The translations under genes were made by a program, and so were the position numbers. Below are positions 144-62,310 of a stretch of DNA of 64,000 bases, piece by piece (within the stretch, counting starts at the first letter, position 1; each line of letters opens with the position of its first letter). The notes below the pieces were generated by a model that was not told where the DNA came from, searched no databases, and worked only from the letters and a program-made list of their open reading frames with translations. The stretch covers positions 1 to 64,000 of the forward strand of contig JAFYSF010000008.1 in the NCBI GenBank assembly GCA_017559505.1. The letters run 5' to 3'. Origin of the DNA: Paludibacteraceae bacterium (lineage in GTDB: Bacteria; Bacteroidota; Bacteroidia; Bacteroidales; Paludibacteraceae).

Positions 144-187
144 TATAGTATATTTGTGGTATATTTATTATATGTTTATAGTATTTT
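144..187 (+). repeat. 11-bp tandem repeat array, 4 units
   Basis: Four consecutive 11-bp units with consensus TATAGTATATT. The same unit occurs at 23686, 44243 (reversed) and 32096 (reversed), each time upstream of a promoter and pointing toward it. Here it lies upstream of the trmD promoter, with a MITE-like element in between. I see no gene in bases 1-499. Confidence 0.85.
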
Positions 188-23685: not shown

Positions 23686-23864
23686 TATAGTATGTTTATA
23701 GTATATTTATCCTATATTTATAGTATATTTATTATATATTTATAGTATATTGAGGGTAAGGAGAGAATGGGGAATGGGGAATGAGGAATGAGGAATGGGG
23801 AATGAGGAATTGAAAATTGCAAATTCGAAGGGGTTGAGTAATTGAAATATTTTTTGTAACTTTG
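23686..23864 (+). promoter_or_regulatory. Repeat-plus-promoter cassette, copy A
   Basis: In order: six 11-bp units (23686-23751), a GAGGGTAAGGAGA spacer, eight 7-bp units (23765-23820, GAATGAG/GAATGGG type), then TTG (23834-23836), 20 bp, TAACTTTG (23857-23864). The same order and nearly the same sequence occur reversed at 31968-32165 in front of metK. The last 55 bp (23810-23864) differ from that copy by one substitution and one indel. It drives the kelch gene. Confidence 0.85.
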
Positions 23865-23882: not shown

Positions 23883-24863
23883 ATGCGATTGAGAGATTTT
23901 ATATTGTTTTTGCTTGTTTTTTGTGTGGCTTGTGAGCGTTATGAAGTGGGTGATGCGGAGTTGTTGGAGGTGGAGAGTTGGGATGTGGATTTTACTTTGG
24001 CTTCGGGGAATTGTGTGGTGTATGGTGATACGTTGTATGTGTTGTTTGGGCGAGAAGAGGGAGGTAGCGCGGAGAAGCCTTCGACAAAGTGGCGGCGTGC
24101 GGCGATGAATGATTTGGCAAATTTCGAGGAGAGAGATTTGCCTATGGGGGCGCGTGTGAATGGTGCGGCTATTGTTGTAGATGATAAATTGTATGCGGGG
24201 TTGGGTTTTCGTGGTAGGGTTTATGGTGAGAATTCTTATTTGCGAGATTGGTGGGAATATGATTTTGGCGCGAAAGAGTGGAGAAGGTTGGCAGATTTTC
24301 CGACTAAGGATGTGGTTGCTCCTATCGTGTGGGGGGATGAGGGGTATGTGTATACGCTGTATGGATCGAACGAGGGACCGAGCGGGGTGGTGTATCGTTA
24401 TGATATAAAGGGAGATAGTTGGGAGGTTTATGCAGAAACGACTAAGCCTTGGGCGAGATATAGGGCTTTGGGTGGTGTTGTTGGTGGAGGATTGTATTGT
24501 GGTGGAGTTTCTACGTTTGATTCGAAGCAGTATTGGTGGCGATATGATTGGCGAGGGAATGATTGGATGGAGTGTGCGAGAGTGCCTAAGTTTGCGCGTT
24601 TTTTTGCTTCTTCGGTTACGATTGGGGATTGTATTTACTTGTTGGGCGGTCGGAGTTGGGGCGGTTCGGAGACTCGAGAGCATTTTTATGAAACGATAAT
24701 TTTTTATGATACTCGGATTGATGAATGGAAGACTTTGGGGCGGATGGAGTGTGGAATTGAAAATATGATTGCTTTTGAATATGAGGGGGATTTGTATTGG
24801 GGATTGGGACAGAAAGAGGATGGGACATTCGTGACGAAAATATATAAGAAAATGAGGAATTAG
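23883..24863 (+). CDS. Kelch-repeat lipoprotein
   Basis: A 326-aa exported protein. The signal (MRLRDFILFLLVFCVAC) ends in a cysteine suited to lipidation. Several kelch-like blades follow, each with a GG or G-x-Y/W core (VYGDTLYVLFGREEGG, VDDKLYAGLGF, IGDCIYLLGGRSWGG, YEGDLYWGLGQ), so a beta-propeller is predicted. The frame opens at 23862, but that TTG lies in the promoter box, so an ATG at 23877 or 23883 is used; I chose 23883. It ends 2 nt before the Wzi-like gene. Coding is extremely G/T-rich. The ligand is unknown; the context suggests a role in surface polysaccharide. Confidence 0.75.
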   Translation: MRLRDFILFLLVFCVACERYEVGDAELLEVESWDVDFTLASGNCVVYGDTLYVLFGREEGGSAEKPSTKWRRAAMNDLANFEERDLPMGARVNGAAIVVDDKLYAGLGFRGRVYGENSYLRDWWEYDFGAKEWRRLADFPTKDVVAPIVWGDEGYVYTLYGSNEGPSGVVYRYDIKGDSWEVYAETTKPWARYRALGGVVGGGLYCGGVSTFDSKQYWWRYDWRGNDWMECARVPKFARFFASSVTIGDCIYLLGGRSWGGSETREHFYETIIFYDTRIDEWKTLGRMECGIENMIAFEYEGDLYWGLGQKEDGTFVTKIYKKMRN

Positions 24864-24865
24864 GG

Positions 24866-26305
24866 ATGAGAAATTGTAGGTTATTTGTTCTATCGCTGTT
24901 ATTGTTCCATGTTGCTTGTGTATGGGCTTGGGAATGGTGGCCATTGCCAATGGATTCGGCTGATAGCGGTCGGGATTCGTTAGTCTATTTTGGCGAATTT
25001 ATGGGATTGGCCTCATCGGGAGAATTTGCTCCATTTTGGTTTTCGACTAATAGAGATGGAGCTGTTTCGGTAGCACCATATAGTAGTTATTTGAGAATTG
25101 GCGTAGATAAAGAGGCTGTGCATTCGGCTCGGTGGTGGGATTATTCTTATGGAATAGATGTGTTGGGAGGAGGTGATATGTATGGGCTTGATGCTCAGAT
25201 AATGAAGCTATATGCTCATGGACGATTGTGGTGTTTTGATATAACTGCGGGGATTAAGCCTTTCGATATGGGTAATCAAGATTATGAGTTGTCGGCTGGA
25301 GGTTTTTTGTTTTCGCGCAATGCGCCTTCGATGCCACGAGTTTCGATTGGTATTGATAAATATACAGCTTTTCCGTTCACGTATGGTTATATGGAAATAA
25401 AAGGTGGCATTACTCAGGGTTGGTTCGTTGATAAAATCGGTGTGGAAAGAGCAATGTTGCATCATAAATATGTGGGAGTGCGCTTTGGAGGGAGATTGCC
25501 GGTTACGCTTAATTATGAATTTCATCATGCAGCACAATGGGGAGGGAAGTCGCCCGTTTATGGCGAATTAGGGTCGTCGTTTAGAGATTGGTGGACAGCG
25601 TTTAAGGCTTCGTCGGGAGGAGTGATGGCAAATGACCAAATAAATGCAATGGGCAATCATATTGTGTCGCAAATGTTAGGGTTAGAAGTGAAATGTGGAG
25701 GTTGGAGTGTGAATACATATTGGCAATTGTTGTTGGAAGATCCGCCTATCCGATTGATGTGGAGAGCAAAAAATGCTTCAGATGGACTGTGGGGAGTGGC
25801 GATAAAACAAAATAAGTGGGATTTTATTCATTCGTTGACATATGAGTTTTTTGCTACTACTGACCAAGCAGGACCTATGCATGATTTGGATGGTATTATA
25901 TTAGGAGGGAAAGATAATTATTTTAATAACATCGTTTATTTGCAAGGGTGGAGTCACTTTGGGCGTACTATAGGTAATCCGTTTGTTACCTCGCCAATTT
26001 ATGGAAGTTCAATCACGACTGAAAATAATCGCGCATTTACGCATCATATAGCCTTAAAAGGTGATATTTATGGGTTTAATTATTTGGTGAGATATAGTCA
26101 TTCAGATAATTTTGGCACATATGATTTGCCCATGAGAAGTTATAATAACTCGGTTTATTGTTCGGTGCAGAGACTGGTGCCACAGGCGTGGAATCTTAGT
26201 TTTGGGGTGTCGGTTGGAGCCGATTTTGGAACACAATTTGGTAATTCCTTTGGCGCAATGGTTACAATTTCTCGCCGAGGGATAATATGGAAATCTAAAA
26301 AATGA
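24866..26305 (+). CDS. Wzi-like capsule assembly outer-membrane protein
   Basis: A 479-aa protein with a signal peptide (about 1-21) and the beta-barrel pattern of the capsule-assembly Wzi family: GEFAPFWFSTNRDG near the N-terminus, alternating Trp/Tyr strands, and a family-like SHSDNFGTYD near the C-terminus. Wzi-type barrels help hold polysaccharide at the cell surface. Its stop overlaps the next start by 4 bp (ATGA), so it is translationally linked to the glycosyltransferases downstream. Identification is by fold-level similarity, not close sequence recall. Confidence 0.75.
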   Translation: MRNCRLFVLSLLLFHVACVWAWEWWPLPMDSADSGRDSLVYFGEFMGLASSGEFAPFWFSTNRDGAVSVAPYSSYLRIGVDKEAVHSARWWDYSYGIDVLGGGDMYGLDAQIMKLYAHGRLWCFDITAGIKPFDMGNQDYELSAGGFLFSRNAPSMPRVSIGIDKYTAFPFTYGYMEIKGGITQGWFVDKIGVERAMLHHKYVGVRFGGRLPVTLNYEFHHAAQWGGKSPVYGELGSSFRDWWTAFKASSGGVMANDQINAMGNHIVSQMLGLEVKCGGWSVNTYWQLLLEDPPIRLMWRAKNASDGLWGVAIKQNKWDFIHSLTYEFFATTDQAGPMHDLDGIILGGKDNYFNNIVYLQGWSHFGRTIGNPFVTSPIYGSSITTENNRAFTHHIALKGDIYGFNYLVRYSHSDNFGTYDLPMRSYNNSVYCSVQRLVPQAWNLSFGVSVGADFGTQFGNSFGAMVTISRRGIIWKSKK

Positions 26306-27012
26306 AAAAACTTTTAGTTATAACACCAGTAAAAAATTCAATTGAGTTGACAGAAAAAACTATTCGTGCAGTGATGAGTAGTATAGATGAGCAACAAATG
26401 AAATATGTTGTTTTTGATGATTTTTCAGACTGCGAAACCGCCCAAAAATTGGACGCTTTGGCTTGTGAGTTGAGTTTTGAAGTTGTTCATTTGTCAAATT
26501 TTATAGAGTCGCCTTCTCCAAATTATAGATATATTCTGCAAAAAGCGCAAGAGCGTGCGCTTGAAGCGGATGCACATTTGGTTATAGTAGAATCAGATGT
26601 TGTTGTTAATAGAGATACCTTTGTGAAATTGAATAAGACTGTAAAAGAGGGGGTTGGGCTTGTGGCGTCTGTCACGGTGGATGAAAAAGGAGAGGTGAAT
26701 TTTCCTTATCTATTTGCAAAAAAATGGAAAGAAGAAGATAAATCGACAAAAAAACGGATAAGTTTTTGTTGTACTTTGTTGACTAATGAGTTTTTGAAGT
26801 TATATGATTTCAGTTGTCTTGATTCAACAAAAGATTGGTATGATGTTTTTATATCGCATAAGAGCGTGGAATTGGGATTGCGTAATATTCTTATGATGTC
26901 GGACAAGGTTTTGCATAGACCACATAGTAGCCGTCCGTGGAAGTTGTTAAAGTACACTAACCCAGTGAAATATTATTGGATTAAATATACAAAAGGATTT
27001 GATAAGATTTGA
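26302..27012 (+). CDS. Glycosyltransferase family 2-like protein
   Basis: A 236-aa protein beginning MKKLLVITPVKNSIELTEKTI, a GT-A fold start. The family DxD is represented by VESDVVVNRDTF near residues 96-107. No membrane helix is present, so it would act on the cytoplasmic face. The C-terminal YWIKYTKGFDKI is unusual for the family. It starts inside the end of the Wzi-like gene and is followed 3 nt later by the next transferase. Donor and acceptor are unknown. Confidence 0.75.
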   Translation: MKKLLVITPVKNSIELTEKTIRAVMSSIDEQQMKYVVFDDFSDCETAQKLDALACELSFEVVHLSNFIESPSPNYRYILQKAQERALEADAHLVIVESDVVVNRDTFVKLNKTVKEGVGLVASVTVDEKGEVNFPYLFAKKWKEEDKSTKKRISFCCTLLTNEFLKLYDFSCLDSTKDWYDVFISHKSVELGLRNILMMSDKVLHRPHSSRPWKLLKYTNPVKYYWIKYTKGFDKI

Positions 27013-27015
27013 TGT

Positions 27016-28482
27016 ATGCTTGTATCTGTAATTGTACCTGTATATAATTCAGAAAAATATATTGCTGAAGCATTAGAATCTATATTAGCATCGGATTATG
27101 CTGATATAGAGGTGATTTGCGTTGATGATGGGTCGCAAGATAAATCATTGGAGATTTTGCAAAAATATGCTTTAGGGGATAGTCGGGTAAGAGTTTATTC
27201 ACAGCAGAATTCGGGGGCTTGTGTAGCACGTAATTATGCGATATCTTTGGCTAAAGGTGAATTTATTTTGCCTGTTGACTCTGATAATAAGATTACATCT
27301 ACTTTTATTTCTCGGGCTATGGCAGTTATGCTTTCTGATGCAGAGGTGAAAGTAGTTGCACCGCGGGCAATGTATTTTGGAGATAAGAGTGGAGAATGGA
27401 AGTTGCCACCGTTTTCGTTAAATTTGTTGGCGCGAAAGAATATAGTAGATACATGCGCATTGTTTCGTAAATCAGATTGGGAGCGAGTAGGGGGGTATTG
27501 TGCCGAAATAAAGACGAGAGAAGATTGGGCTTTTTGGATTGCGATATTAAAAGATGGGGGCAAGGTGGTGCGTTTGCCTGAGATAGAGTTTTTTTATCGA
27601 GTACGGGCAACATCAAAACGGGCTAGTAATCGGCATTTGAAATCTGATGTGATTGATACTTTAAATAGATTGCATCCTGAATTTTTTGAACGGGAATTAG
27701 GTGGACCATTACGCCACAGACGCAGTTTGTCAAAATTGATAAATGCTTTTTATCGCATTTTTCATCCAAGAAAAGTGCAGTTGGTTGATGAGTGTAAAGA
27801 TTGTGAGTATTGGGTAAAATCATTGCCTATAAGGTGGTGTAATAAGGAAGGAGAGGTAATTCATAATCGTCGTAATGAATTGAGGAAGATGAGATTGGGT
27901 GATGTAGATGTGGTTGTAAAATCTTTTGCTATTCCGAATTTTATCAATCGTTTAGTTTATGGCGTTTTTCGTAAATCTAAGGCTCAACGTTCTTATGAAT
28001 ATGCAGTAAGACTAAATGCATTGGGAATAAAATCCCCTGCGCCAATTGCTTATTATACCGAACGGTGCGGTCTATTGTTTTCTAAGAGTTATTACATATC
28101 TAAAAAAAGTGGTTGTCGTTATACTTTTTATGATGTGATTGATAACGAGAGTTTAGAGCACAGAGATTTGTATCTACGGCATATAGGAAAGATGACAGCT
28201 AAAATGCATAATTTGGGCATCTATCCTCTTGATTATTCAGGTGGGAATATTTTGCTTGATGTTGTGGATGGACAACCGCAATTTGAATTGGTCGATTTGA
28301 ATCGTATGAGATTTGGTGACGTTGATATAGACAAAGGTTGTCGAGGTTTTGAGCGTCTAAATGTGGAGGCGTCGGCATTGAAAATTATGGCGCAAGAATA
28401 TGCTAAAGAAAGAGGCTTTGATGAAAATAAATGTATTGAGTTAATTCATAAATATCGTTGGAGTAAACATCAAAAACAATGA
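27016..28482 (+). CDS. GT2 glycosyltransferase fused to Kdo/LPS-kinase-like domain
   Basis: A 488-aa two-domain protein. Residues 1-230 form a GT-A/GT2 transferase (SVIVPVYNSEKYIAEALESIL; DDGSQDKSLEIL; DSDNK as DxD; REDWAFW). Residues about 265-488 form a kinase of the InaA/KdkA/WaaP type. It has a Lys in VVVKSF, a catalytic-loop equivalent LDYSGGNILLD and the metal-site equivalent LVDLNRMRFG. Such kinases phosphorylate Kdo or heptose in the lipopolysaccharide core. The fusion implies sugar addition and phosphorylation of the same core. It overlaps the next gene by 4 bp. Confidence 0.85.
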   Translation: MLVSVIVPVYNSEKYIAEALESILASDYADIEVICVDDGSQDKSLEILQKYALGDSRVRVYSQQNSGACVARNYAISLAKGEFILPVDSDNKITSTFISRAMAVMLSDAEVKVVAPRAMYFGDKSGEWKLPPFSLNLLARKNIVDTCALFRKSDWERVGGYCAEIKTREDWAFWIAILKDGGKVVRLPEIEFFYRVRATSKRASNRHLKSDVIDTLNRLHPEFFERELGGPLRHRRSLSKLINAFYRIFHPRKVQLVDECKDCEYWVKSLPIRWCNKEGEVIHNRRNELRKMRLGDVDVVVKSFAIPNFINRLVYGVFRKSKAQRSYEYAVRLNALGIKSPAPIAYYTERCGLLFSKSYYISKKSGCRYTFYDVIDNESLEHRDLYLRHIGKMTAKMHNLGIYPLDYSGGNILLDVVDGQPQFELVDLNRMRFGDVDIDKGCRGFERLNVEASALKIMAQEYAKERGFDENKCIELIHKYRWSKHQKQ

Positions 28483-29285
28483 AAGCAACAGTAATTATCT
28501 CTGTATATAAGAATGTTAAGGCGTTGTGTCTTATCCTTGAGTCTTTGCGAGTTCAAACTTGTAAAGATTTTGATGTAATTATTTCTGAAGACGGCGAAGA
28601 TGCTTCTATGCGTTTATTTGTCGAGCGATATGATTGGTTTTGTTCTTATAAACATTTGACTCAAGCAGATGAAGGATGGCGTAAAAATCGAGCTCTTAAT
28701 CGTGCAATTTTAGCAGCAAACAATGATTGGTTGATTTTTATTGATGGTGATTGTGTAGTGCATCGGAGGTTTGTTGAGATGCATCTTCGCTATGCCAAAC
28801 CTAATAAAATATTGTTAGGCAAGCGAGTTAAGCTCTCGAATAATCTATCTGCTCAGTTGCTTGACAATACACTTTCTGTTTCAGAGTTATCGGCTTTGAT
28901 GTGGCAATTGTTGTTTTTCAATAGAGGGTGTAAGTATGTCGATGAAGCGCTTTTTATTCCTTATTTTCTCTCTTTTTCGTTGCGGTCAACTCGCAGTCTT
29001 ACTGGGTGTAATATGTCTTTTTCGCGTGAGGCGATTATGTCAATAAATGGATTTGATGAAGATTATGTGCGTCCTGCGATAGGAGAAGACGTTGATATTT
29101 ATTGGCGTTTAAAAGCAAACGGTTACGAACCTGTTAGTATTCGTAACCGAGCAATAGCATATCATCTTTATCATAAAGAGAATTGGACCGAGCAAGAAGA
29201 GAATGAAGCTTTGATGAATCGCAATAAAGCGAAAAATCAGGTTGTTTGCCTTAATGGTATTTCTAATCACTTTCCGACAATTTAG
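28479..29285 (+). CDS. Glycosyltransferase family 2 with galactosyltransferase-like C-domain
   Basis: A 268-aa transferase. The start TVIISVYKNVKALCLILESLRVQT and the DGDCVVHRRFVEMH DxD segment (about 87-100) mark GT2. The segment TGCNMSFSREAIMSINGFDED..GEDVDIYWRLKANG (about 167-205) is the Glyco_transf_7C-type substrate domain seen in chondroitin-type and LPS transferases. It is the last gene of the + strand glycan operon and ends overlapping the convergent O-antigen ligase gene by 23 bp. Confidence 0.88.
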   Translation: MKATVIISVYKNVKALCLILESLRVQTCKDFDVIISEDGEDASMRLFVERYDWFCSYKHLTQADEGWRKNRALNRAILAANNDWLIFIDGDCVVHRRFVEMHLRYAKPNKILLGKRVKLSNNLSAQLLDNTLSVSELSALMWQLLFFNRGCKYVDEALFIPYFLSFSLRSTRSLTGCNMSFSREAIMSINGFDEDYVRPAIGEDVDIYWRLKANGYEPVSIRNRAIAYHLYHKENWTEQEENEALMNRNKAKNQVVCLNGISNHFPTI

Positions 29286-30513
29286 TGTTGATGAAAAAAT
29301 ATATCAACCAGCAAAAAAGAAATATTTGATAATGAGCCGTGAATGATTCTACCATTGCTTGTATTCCAAATATTAAGATGATGAAAGACAGGTATAATTG
29401 TCTTTTGTTTTTTGTAAATACAATAGGTAATAGGAACATTAAAAGAGTTATAATTATTCCTATTAGTCCAAATTCTACAGCAGATTCCAAAAATGCATTG
29501 TGGCAATGGAATCTGTTTTTGTTATAATCTGGGTCTAATAAGTACCAATGTTCCCAAAATTCAGCTAAGTCTTTATTGTTTGTTACTCGTTCGATGAATA
29601 ATTCTTTGCCTAGACACACTCCATGTCCCAATATCGGCTTTTCTTTGATTATATCAATCGAGGTTTTCCATACATACATTCTCGGCTCTTTGACCAATTC
29701 GTTCAAATTTAGTCGGTTGTGATGACTTGCAATGCACAAAAGGGCTATTGAAACAATCATCAAGCTCGGGATTAAAAATTTCGGCTTGTATTGGTGTATT
29801 GTTATTCCTATAAATAGCCATATCAGTATGTTAGCTATTATGAATCCCGCCCTACCTTCATTCAACAATAGTGATATATAAATAATTAGAATACCGAGCA
29901 AAGGGAGAATAGCATTCCATTTTTTTCTCTTTTCGTGTATGTATACAAAGCAAATAGCTATTGTGCAATTTAGGTATTGGTTCAGTCCTATATGTGTCGT
30001 ATGCAAGGCTTTATGCCTTATTACAGGCAAAATAGTCCTTATTTCTTCTATCGTTGTTGGTTGATGCTCAGTTACTTTGTAGGTTAAATACCCTATTGCA
30101 ATTAGCGACGTAACCAACATCGTATAGGCTATATGCGAAATTTTTATTTTGGGGTTGATTGCGCAGGTCAATCCTAAAAGTCCAAATACCAAAAATGGTA
30201 GCCTTGTGTCTGTTGAATGAAAATATATTTGCGCATTGCAATCTTCAAACAAATGCCATATCCACATAGCGGCATAAAAAAACGCCATTGTGGCAAAAAC
30301 GTATTTGGTGTTATGCCACTTTAAGCCTTTGTATCGGCGATTTACTACTATGTCAACTATCAAACTTGCAAAATACACGTATAGTGCAACTTTTTGATAA
30401 TTAAATGGTAGGATAAACGTGCTTAGTAAATATATTGTCGATAATACATTAATCCATTCTACCGCAGTCGGTAGAATGGATTTCATGTTATTATGCGCAA
30501 ATTTTGTTGTCAT
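29263..30513 (-). CDS. O-antigen ligase / polymerase family membrane protein
   Basis: A 416-aa protein with about ten membrane helices. The large periplasmic loop typical of Wzy/WaaL/RfaL proteins includes HTTHIGLNQYLN, the GHGVCLG motif and HCHNAFLESAVEFGLIGI with its conserved His and Glu. WaaL transfers polymer to lipid A-core; Wzy polymerises repeat units; the sequence does not separate them. It starts with a 1-bp overlap on the metK stop (TAATG), so the two are co-transcribed. The role fits the adjacent glycan genes on the opposite strand. Confidence 0.85.
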   Translation of the reverse strand: MTTKFAHNNMKSILPTAVEWINVLSTIYLLSTFILPFNYQKVALYVYFASLIVDIVVNRRYKGLKWHNTKYVFATMAFFYAAMWIWHLFEDCNAQIYFHSTDTRLPFLVFGLLGLTCAINPKIKISHIAYTMLVTSLIAIGYLTYKVTEHQPTTIEEIRTILPVIRHKALHTTHIGLNQYLNCTIAICFVYIHEKRKKWNAILPLLGILIIYISLLLNEGRAGFIIANILIWLFIGITIHQYKPKFLIPSLMIVSIALLCIASHHNRLNLNELVKEPRMYVWKTSIDIIKEKPILGHGVCLGKELFIERVTNNKDLAEFWEHWYLLDPDYNKNRFHCHNAFLESAVEFGLIGIIITLLMFLLPIVFTKNKRQLYLSFIILIFGIQAMVESFTAHYQIFLFCWLIYFFINTKLSESD

Positions 30514-31793
30514 TAAAGGTTAAATTCTGCTTTAACTTTTTCAACGAAGTCTAATTTTTCCCAAGTAAACAATTCAACTTCGTAGCAGCGATATGGCTCA
30601 TATCTAGTTTCATAGCATTTTGTCACTGTGCGAGGCGTGCGACCCATATGTCCGTATGATGCTGTTTCTGCATAGATAGGATTACGAAGTTTCAAGCGTT
30701 GTTCAATAGCGTATGGGCGCATGTCAAATATTTTCAACACACGTTCAGCAATTTCGCCATCGCTCATAGCCACTTTCGATTTGCCATAAGTGTTGATATA
30801 TAAACTCACAGGCTCAGCCACACCAATAGCGTATGCCACTTGCACCAATATTTCGTCCGAAACACCTGCAGCCACAAGGTTTTTTGCTATATGACGTGCA
30901 GCGTATGCTGCCGAGCGGTCCACTTTCGATGGGTCTTTACCCGAGAATGCACCACCTCCGTGCGCACCTTTACCGCCGTATGTATCAACGATAATTTTAC
31001 GACCGGTCAAACCCGTGTCGCCGTGAGGGCCACCAATCACAAACTTGCCTGTTGGATTTACGTGTAGGATAATATCACCTTTGAAATATTTTGCCAAGTA
31101 AGGATATTTCTCCAAAACGCGAGGCAAAAGTATCTTCTCCACATCTTCGTGAATTAGTTTCACCATTGCTTTGTCAGCCTCCTCTTGCGAGATAAAATCA
31201 TTCGCTGTAATAAACTCATCGTGTTGAGTCGAAACCACAATAGTATGCACTCTTTCAGGGTAACCATTGTCGTCGTATTCGATAGTTACTTGACTCTTTG
31301 AGTCCGGACGAAGATATGTCATCTCTTTTCCCTCTTTACGAATTGCAGCCAATTCAATCAAAAGTATATGGCTCAAAGCCAACGACAAAGGCATATAATC
31401 ATCAGTCTCATTACAAGCATAACCAAACATCATACCTTGGTCGCCTGCACCTTGATTTTCAGCCTCAGCACGCTCTACGCCACGATTGATATCAGCCGAT
31501 TGTTCGTGTATAGCCGACAACACACCGCACGAATTACCCTCAAACATATACTCGCTTTTTGTGTAACCGATGCGATTAATCACCTTACGTGCAACATCTT
31601 GCACATCTACATAAGCCTTACTTTTCACTTCGCCACCAAGCACAACTTGTCCTGTAGTAACAAAAGTTTCACATGCCACTTTCGATTGAGGATCGAACGC
31701 CAAAAATTCGTCCAAAATAGCATCACTAATTTGGTCAGCCACTTTATCTGGATGACCTTCTGAAACCGATTCAGATGTAAATAAATAACCCAT
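30513..31793 (-). CDS. metK: S-adenosylmethionine synthetase
   Basis: Makes SAM from methionine and ATP. The 426-aa protein has [16 protein letters not shown] at the N-terminus, [12 protein letters not shown] (ATP site) and [19 protein letters not shown] (P-loop-like) in the usual order. The length is slightly above the E. coli enzyme (384), as in Bacteroidota. It lies behind a SAM-II type riboswitch and a strong promoter, so it is probably shut down when SAM is high. It is followed by the O-antigen ligase in the same transcript. Confidence 0.97.
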
Positions 31794-31847: not shown

Positions 31848-31961
31848 GATTTGACTTCGAAAAAACAAAAGGAAATAAATCGCGCAGATATAGCGCACAG
31901 ACATACTCCATTTTAGCATTTTTTTCTGTGGTTGCAAGCAGTCAAATCTCTCCACATTTTC
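31848..31961 (-). promoter_or_regulatory. SAM-II riboswitch and expression platform of metK
   Basis: On the - strand, the aptamer is 31906-31956. P1 pairs 31952-31956 with 31927-31931 (UGUGG/CCACA). The enclosed loop has the SAM-II sequence GAUUUGACUGCUUGCAA. It is followed, after an A-rich run, by AUGCUAAAAUGGAG, the pseudoknot strand. This agrees in order and spacing with the SAM-II (metA/metX) riboswitch class. Downstream, 31848-31856 is a perfect 9-nt complement of loop bases 31940-31948, an apparent anti-aptamer near the metK start. The transcription start predicted from the promoter falls only a few nt before the aptamer. Confidence 0.82.
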
Positions 31962-31967
31962 ACACCG

Positions 31968-32165
31968 CAAAGTTACAAAAAATATTTCAATTACGCAACC
32001 CCCTTCGAATTTGCAATTTTCAACTCCTAATTTCTCATTCCTCATTCCACATTCCTCATTCCACATTCCTCATTCCACATTCTCTCCTTACTCTCAATAT
32101 ACTATAAATATACCATAAATATATGATAAATATACTATAAACATACTATAAATATACTATAACTT
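31968..32165 (-). promoter_or_regulatory. Repeat-plus-promoter cassette, copy B (metK promoter)
   Basis: Read on the - strand it repeats the order of copy A (23686-23864): 11-bp array (32096-32165), a spacer, heptamers (32034-32082, alternating GAATGTG/GAATGAG), then TTG (31996-31998), 20 bp, TAACTTTG (31968-31975). Bases 31968-32023 match copy A almost exactly. Confidence 0.85.
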
Positions 32166-44218: not shown

Positions 44219-44242
44219 CAACTCATCCTCTCTTTTACTACA

Positions 44243-44309
44243 ACATACTATAAATATACCATAAATATAGGATAAATATACTATAAATATAGGATAAATA
44301 TACTATAAA
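44243..44309 (-). repeat. 11-bp tandem repeat array, 6 units
   Basis: Six 11-bp units, consensus on the - strand TATAGTATATT. The array ends 25 bp upstream of the -33 element of the DUF5606 promoter and points toward it. Confidence 0.85.
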
Positions 44310-62156: not shown

Positions 62157-62310
62157 CCTTACCATACAGTAACCTTCTTCATAGGATAACCATACTTTCA
62201 AGCTATCTGTTGGCGTCTTAAAATCGTACTCGGGGGACGAGCAAGATAGGTTTATCCTTCGTATATCTTTCGTATATCCTTCGTATATACTTCGTATATC
62301 CTTCGTAGAA
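62157..62310 (+). repeat. Dispersed-element remnant and 11-bp array
   Basis: 62157-62202 is the core (with CATAGGATAACC) of the 115-bp element, without its palindromes. 62256-62310 is a different 11-bp array of five units, CTTCGTATATC consensus. No gene lies between rsmI and yjjG. Confidence 0.7.

Follow-up and report, generated by a model that had tools for sequence, protein, structure and literature searches.

Known forms of promoter reuse and the present locus

To our knowledge, reuse of promoters in bacteria has been deduced from near-identical promoters, and donors, recipients and junctions are rarely visible. Mobile promoters, or promoter propagation, were treated by Matus-Garcia et al. 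2012 and van Passel et al. 2014 (as cited in PMC8049555). A related process, horizontal regulatory transfer, yields switched intergenic regions and allows the source of the incoming region to lie elsewhere in the same genome (PMC5890482). Heptameric SSRs, or STRR, are known in Nostoc, Calothrix and Xanthomonas (PMC4692102; PMC2670836).

The locus analyzed here lies in a window of 64,000 nucleotides, a single stretch of a Paludibacteraceae contig. As in promoter propagation as cited in PMC8049555, a near-identical promoter stands before unrelated genes in one genome. What differs is that the probable donor, the recipient and, in a sister species, the recipient locus in its other state can all be seen, that the transfer appears confined to sequence upstream of the -7 box, and that a separate repeat family marks the sites. 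It is the availability of two close genomes that reveals these states, with the same -7 junction in three pairs. The locus resembles horizontal regulatory transfer (PMC5890482) in that an upstream region has apparently been swapped for a non-homologous one while the flanking genes stayed; in contrast to that process, the probable source is identified within the genome, the junction falls inside the promoter at the -7 box, and repeats are present at the site. The invertible promoters of Bacteroidales, as presented in PMC8748976, are likewise Bacteroidales promoters rewired by recombination, whereas no local inversion was observed here and the proposed exchange would take place between distant loci. 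In its best reading, the arrangement is a variant of promoter propagation or of regulatory switching. The heptamers of this genome are dispersed 7-bp intergenic tandem arrays found at many sites, partly G-rich and varying in length between relatives, as are the heptameric SSRs and STRR. However, their units are different and in many cases an 11-bp array, with conserved ends of its own, precedes them; the likeness is one of kind and implies no shared descent.

Layout of the two copies

An earlier note on this DNA described a unit occurring twice, upstream of kelch and, inverted, upstream of metK, with the final 55 bp nearly identical although the genes are unrelated. Both observations held. The parts follow in the same order (array, spacer, heptamers, promoter) at 23686-23864 (+) and 31968-32161 (-), and the final 55 bp upstream of kelch (23810-23864) are distinguished from the 56 bp upstream of metK (32023-31968) by a single base change (TTGAG/TTGCG) and a single indel. 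Chance would give 0.02 matches to the 20-mer TTGAAAATTGCAAATTCGAA in the window, where two were found, and its exact matches in the whole genome are the kelch and metK copies only. A two-unit array pattern occurs 16 times in the window against 0.01 expected. The features are as follows.

23686..23751, + strand: 11-bp array upstream of kelch, six units TATNNTATRTT
23752..23764, + strand: conserved right end of the array, kelch copy, GAGGGTAAGGAGA; family consensus GTAGGTAAGNAGAG
23765..23810, + strand: heptamer array GAATGRG, kelch copy
23810..23864, + strand: kelch segment common with metK; promoter TTG-N20-TAACTTTG at 23834-23864
23834-23836 and 23857-23864, + strand: kelch promoter boxes, -33 TTG and -7 TAACTTTG; the -7 box is the apparent replacement junction
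23883..24863, + strand: kelch-repeat protein (Kelch_6), probable recipient gene
24866..29285, + strand: four genes after kelch, a Wzi-like protein (Caps_assemb_Wzi) and three glycosyltransferase-2 proteins; probable surface-glycan operon, presumably cotranscribed
32096..32161, - strand: 11-bp array upstream of metK, six units
32025..32095, - strand: array right end GAGAGTAAGGAGA and heptamer array GAATGWG, metK copy
31968..32023, - strand: metK segment common with kelch, probable donor
31998-31996 and 31975-31968, - strand: metK promoter boxes, -33 TTG and -7 TAACTTTG
31903..31961, - strand: SAM-II riboswitch of metK (67.5 bits), absent from what kelch would have received
30513..31793, - strand: metK, S-adenosylmethionine synthetase, probable donor gene
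44242..44307, - strand: further 11-bp family array with another downstream promoter
144..187, + strand: short degenerate 11-bp family array, then a MITE-like insert
62253..62307, + strand: 11-bp array of a different unit, TATCCTTCGTA (five copies), with a similar right end, GAAGGTAGGG

The last three arrays, and the genome-wide family described below, had gone unmentioned in the note. The array at 62253-62307 suggests that the unit may be exchanged between ends that stay conserved.

The SAM-II riboswitch begins about 7 nt past the -7 box of metK, so that the metK transcript can be assigned an orientation and an approximate start. The predicted metK promoter is thus independently supported by a riboswitch in register.

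The promoter and its distribution

The element TTG-N20-TAACTTTG at kelch and metK fits a sigma-ABfr-type Bacteroidota promoter, for which the consensus is TAnnTTTG at -7 and TTG or TTTG near -33 (PMC7366714). A whole-genome catalogue of this element comprises 96 sites, compared with 6 for the reversed pattern. Among at least 60 arrays, the promoter together with its 20 bp of upstream sequence is found at the kelch and metK copies only. A sequence closely related to the 31-bp promoter core is found at two other arrays (C32:49314 and C22:17), and the remaining arrays have other promoters or none nearby; the kelch/metK promoter is no part of the dispersed array family.

The 27-mer GTAATTGAAATATTTTTTGTAACTTTG has four exact copies in the genome and two near matches, and an array lies upstream of three of the four exact copies and of one near copy. 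The exact twin at C44:40422 stands without an array, which indicates that short promoter identity can arise in the absence of arrays. A short twin of C22:17 at C32:56203 is located upstream of the orthologue of a sister-genome gene (L107, discussed below), and C22:17 is at a contig end, so that gene duplication is possible for this pair.

The 11-bp array family

Several searches combined gave at least 60 11-bp arrays in the 2.34-Mb genome. The DNA search with the kelch unit contributed about 40 array matches from the 40 of 218 candidates that were scored, and its count is hence a lower bound. A three-unit pattern matched 243 times and an array-end pattern 56 times, each against 0 in the reversed control. 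The element consists of GNAGRTTGCTT or GNAGRTAAGGT, usually six units TATNNTATRTT, and then GTAGGTAAGNAGAG. Copies are intergenic and mostly lie between divergent genes: where both neighbors were resolved (n = 32), 19 copies were between divergent and one between convergent genes (divergent excess p = 4e-5, convergent deficit p = 0.002, relative to a simple 25% null that may differ from the real intergenic mix). The ends show neither terminal inverted repeats nor a target-site duplication; their motifs are similar, in direct orientation, and vary independently.

About 40 copies are present in the sister genome Paludibacteraceae RGIG7225 (G008), a fragmented metagenome-assembled genome (MAG) from water buffalo cecum with 6% contamination. 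Eight genomes of the same genus were searched, and the array was detected in G008 and undetected in the seven others; a period-11 scan over 471 kb of the more distant genome G003 revealed no 11-bp array. Within the GTDB-based collection, RGIG7225 is the only array-rich genome besides the present one, and pattern matches in other genomes are different AT-rich repeats. No record of an 11-bp Bacteroidales repeat was found in a literature search whose scope left most subscription journals outside. The array is apparently an undescribed, clade-specific repeat family.

At two sites with conserved neighbors, the 11-mer array is missing in G003, where heptamers are found, of AAGTAGT type at one site and of ATAATTC type upstream of metG at the other. 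Comparison of the present genome with G008 gave no clean empty array site; the pair G8_L077 and L022 was rejected as a candidate because about 850 bp, including a gene, intervene. One intergenic site bears the 11-bp array in two species (L009 and L075) and AAGTAGT-type heptamers in G003 (L168:811-923), like a position able to house one tandem repeat or another.

Probable promoter replacement upstream of kelch

The gdhA-kelch gene order is kept in G008, with an array at the same place followed by two MITE-like inserts. Upstream of the -7 box, the G008 kelch sequence is unrelated to that of the present kelch, and homology restarts at TTGTAACTTTGTGTGTTATTTTT. The locus therefore combines conserved flanking genes with a non-homologous upstream region, as switched regions do. 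At metK, G008 carries the promoter that metK and kelch have in common in the present genome, and metK of G003 has neither the 11-bp array nor this promoter. Since G008 kelch has an array with a different promoter and G008 metK has the shared one, kelch, the first gene of the surface-glycan cluster, most likely received the metK promoter segment in the lineage of the present genome. The direction of copying, from metK to kelch, is deduced from this comparison, and a change in kelch expression may have followed.

Both arrays of the present genome end with TATAGTATATTGAG, unlike either orthologue in G008, which suggests that the transferred tract extends leftward into the repeats. The SAM-II riboswitch was left behind at metK. 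As the Wzi-like gene and the three glycosyltransferase-2 genes follow kelch on the same strand, the whole cluster may have changed promoter, provided that it is cotranscribed. A single event would then have given the surface-glycan genes the promoter of a housekeeping gene but not its riboswitch.

Two further probable replacements

In the present genome, a sigma-factor-like gene (L003, labeled by eye from the start of its protein) and metG (L014) have 106 bp in common, ending just past the -7 box. G008 metG has the same promoter as the present metG; the sigma-like gene of G008 is preceded by an array and by another promoter, and homology restarts at ATTTTTTNGTAACTTTGCAGTCG. This locus, too, has conserved flanking genes and a non-homologous upstream region. 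The motif GTAAGAG is common to the present metG and sigma-like copies, whereas G008 metG has GTAAAAG. The derived motif in both copies places the event, apparently from metG to the sigma-like gene, in the lineage of the present genome.

A third pair occurs in G008, where the unrelated genes at L107 and L195 have 116-126 bp in common that end exactly at TAACTTTG, and their orthologues in the present genome do not have that upstream stretch in common. This case is weaker, as L195 is at a contig end and the pattern of a switched region could be seen on one side only.

Near-identical promoters thus precede unrelated genes in metK/kelch, metG/sigma-like and L107/L195, each pair within one genome, and in all three the junctions coincide with the -7 box or are no more than 4 bp from it. 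The common tracts, the gene order at kelch and at the sigma-like gene, the different sister promoters and the -7 junctions are established at the level of sequence. On at least three occasions, it appears, a gene next to such repeats has had its promoter replaced with the promoter of an unrelated gene.

The gene upstream of metG is the same in the present genome and in G003, and G008 has another gene and a terminator there. In this region (L014/L177, L178/L224, L179/L223), a rearrangement breakpoint coincides with the array of the present genome.

Association of promoter twins with arrays

Seven of the 96 catalogue promoters are co-oriented with an array and lie within 250 bp downstream of it. 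Twins, defined as having no more than one mismatch across the 20-nt spacer, were found for six of these seven compared with 1 of the 89 others (p = 5e-8), and for three of five compared with 1/89 when the window pair was omitted (p = 3e-4). The numbers are small and involve some ascertainment, as the catalogue pattern was modeled on the window promoter. For a subset of the DNA, long promoter-only tracts were present at 4/19 array-downstream promoters and 0/102 others (p = 5e-4); without the window pair the array-downstream fraction was 2/17 (p = 0.02). The array-free genome G003, with 136 promoters, yielded one 68-bp pair, in which the downstream DNA was also partly similar, and some weaker pairs. 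These results support an association of arrays with promoter twins; the repeats may play a causal part in it.

Proposed mechanism and alternative explanations

The observations are probably explained by promoter replacement through ectopic recombination between intergenic regions that have the same short repeats, gene conversion being its simplest form. Two such regions would share homology on the left, in the 11-mer array or the heptamers, and on the right, in the -7 box. Repair of one region from the other would copy the segment between, comprising the -33 region and upstream DNA. The -7 box, start site and leader of the recipient would stay in place, and its upstream promoter half would then be that of another gene. 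The relative parts assigned to the 11-mers, the heptamers and the -7 box are likewise deduced from this arrangement. Arrays were already there in the orthologues of both recipients, kelch and the sigma-like gene, and the unit order differs between donor and recipient arrays, which together argue for replacement rather than insertion. As promoters appear to be replaced beside them, the repeats may mark sites of recombinational rewiring of gene control.

A rather unlikely alternative is that one promoter was already common to kelch and metK in the ancestor of the two lineages and that G008 kelch lost it through MITE insertions and deletion. The two MITE-like inserts between array and promoter at G008 kelch fit such a loss, as does the persistence of the promoter at G008 metK. 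However, the present kelch and metK segments show 2 differences in 56 bp, compared with 3 between the present and G008 metK, and TATAGTATATTGAG ends both present arrays, unlike either G008 orthologue. For metG and the sigma-like gene, the common derived GTAAGAG excludes ancestral sharing. The earlier note had considered that its unit might be confined to two places and ancestral at both; the array proved far more common, and at kelch the promoter does not appear to be the ancestral one.

Movement of array, heptamers and promoter as one element that inserts upstream of new genes, as the earlier note proposed, is improbable. The array family is indeed dispersed with conserved ends, and two copies show the full order of array, heptamers and promoter. 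Yet the 11-bp arrays constitute a separate family, most copies of which are without this promoter, the unit order differs between donor and recipient arrays, and the junctions are at the -7 box instead of an element end. Moreover, the recipients had arrays before the promoter changed: the sister gdhA-kelch site already has an array followed by a different promoter, and the array can hardly have brought the promoter to kelch. Because recipient arrays exist in the sister with other promoters, a composite mobile cassette was rejected as the main reading and is largely refuted. What survives of the proposed rewiring by a dispersed promoter-bearing repeat is the copying of a promoter between unrelated genes beside repeats; the promoter itself lies outside the repeat family.

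Misjoining of short-read contigs at repeats is a very improbable source of the pattern. The genomes are drafts and several contigs end inside arrays; against this, kelch and metK are on one contig and can be told apart by bases, arrays and heptamer numbers, two species assembled separately have conserved genes to either side of the kelch locus and of the sigma-like locus, and a wrong join cannot duplicate a tract. Convergence of unrelated spacers toward a strong promoter, in line with the loose AT-rich spacer consensus of the 96-promoter catalogue and the array-less 27-mer twin, is scarcely credible and was rejected for the three long tracts, as identity runs 20 bp upstream of the -33 element in kelch/metK and spans 106-126 bp in the other pairs.

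Promoter replacement between repeat-bearing regions predicts that upstream promoter halves move more often between array-bearing genes than between others. A tentative and rather doubtful extension is that the 11-bp and heptamer arrays form a lineage-specific substrate for promoter shuffling upstream of dozens of promoters, which, with an invariant -7 box, might make promoter halves interchangeable chromosome-wide. Regulation in this clade would in that case evolve by reassorting existing promoters.

Sequences adjoining the arrays

By a strict test, heptamers follow the array in 17 of 52 copies of the present genome, and a MITE-like insert follows it in 11/52 copies here and 9/37 in the sister; no copy had both under this test. 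The MITE-like element, with ends TTCTTCRTCAACTTAGTTGAAAG ... CTTTCAACTAAGTTGACGAAGAA, is situated directly right of the array's right end, at about 190-440 in the window and at L012, L016, L019, L020, L078, L081, L115 and other sites. At L012 and L019 the array right-end sequence recurs after the element, suggesting target duplication. Heptamers of the GGGAGTA/GGGAGCA type produce at least four GGG runs separated by 4-nt loops. The resulting G-quadruplex motif lies within 300 bp of the array in 10 of the 52 copies (L008, L010, L061, L064, L068 and others). At L017, a cobalamin-riboswitch-like sequence, recognized by eye, follows the array and promoter.
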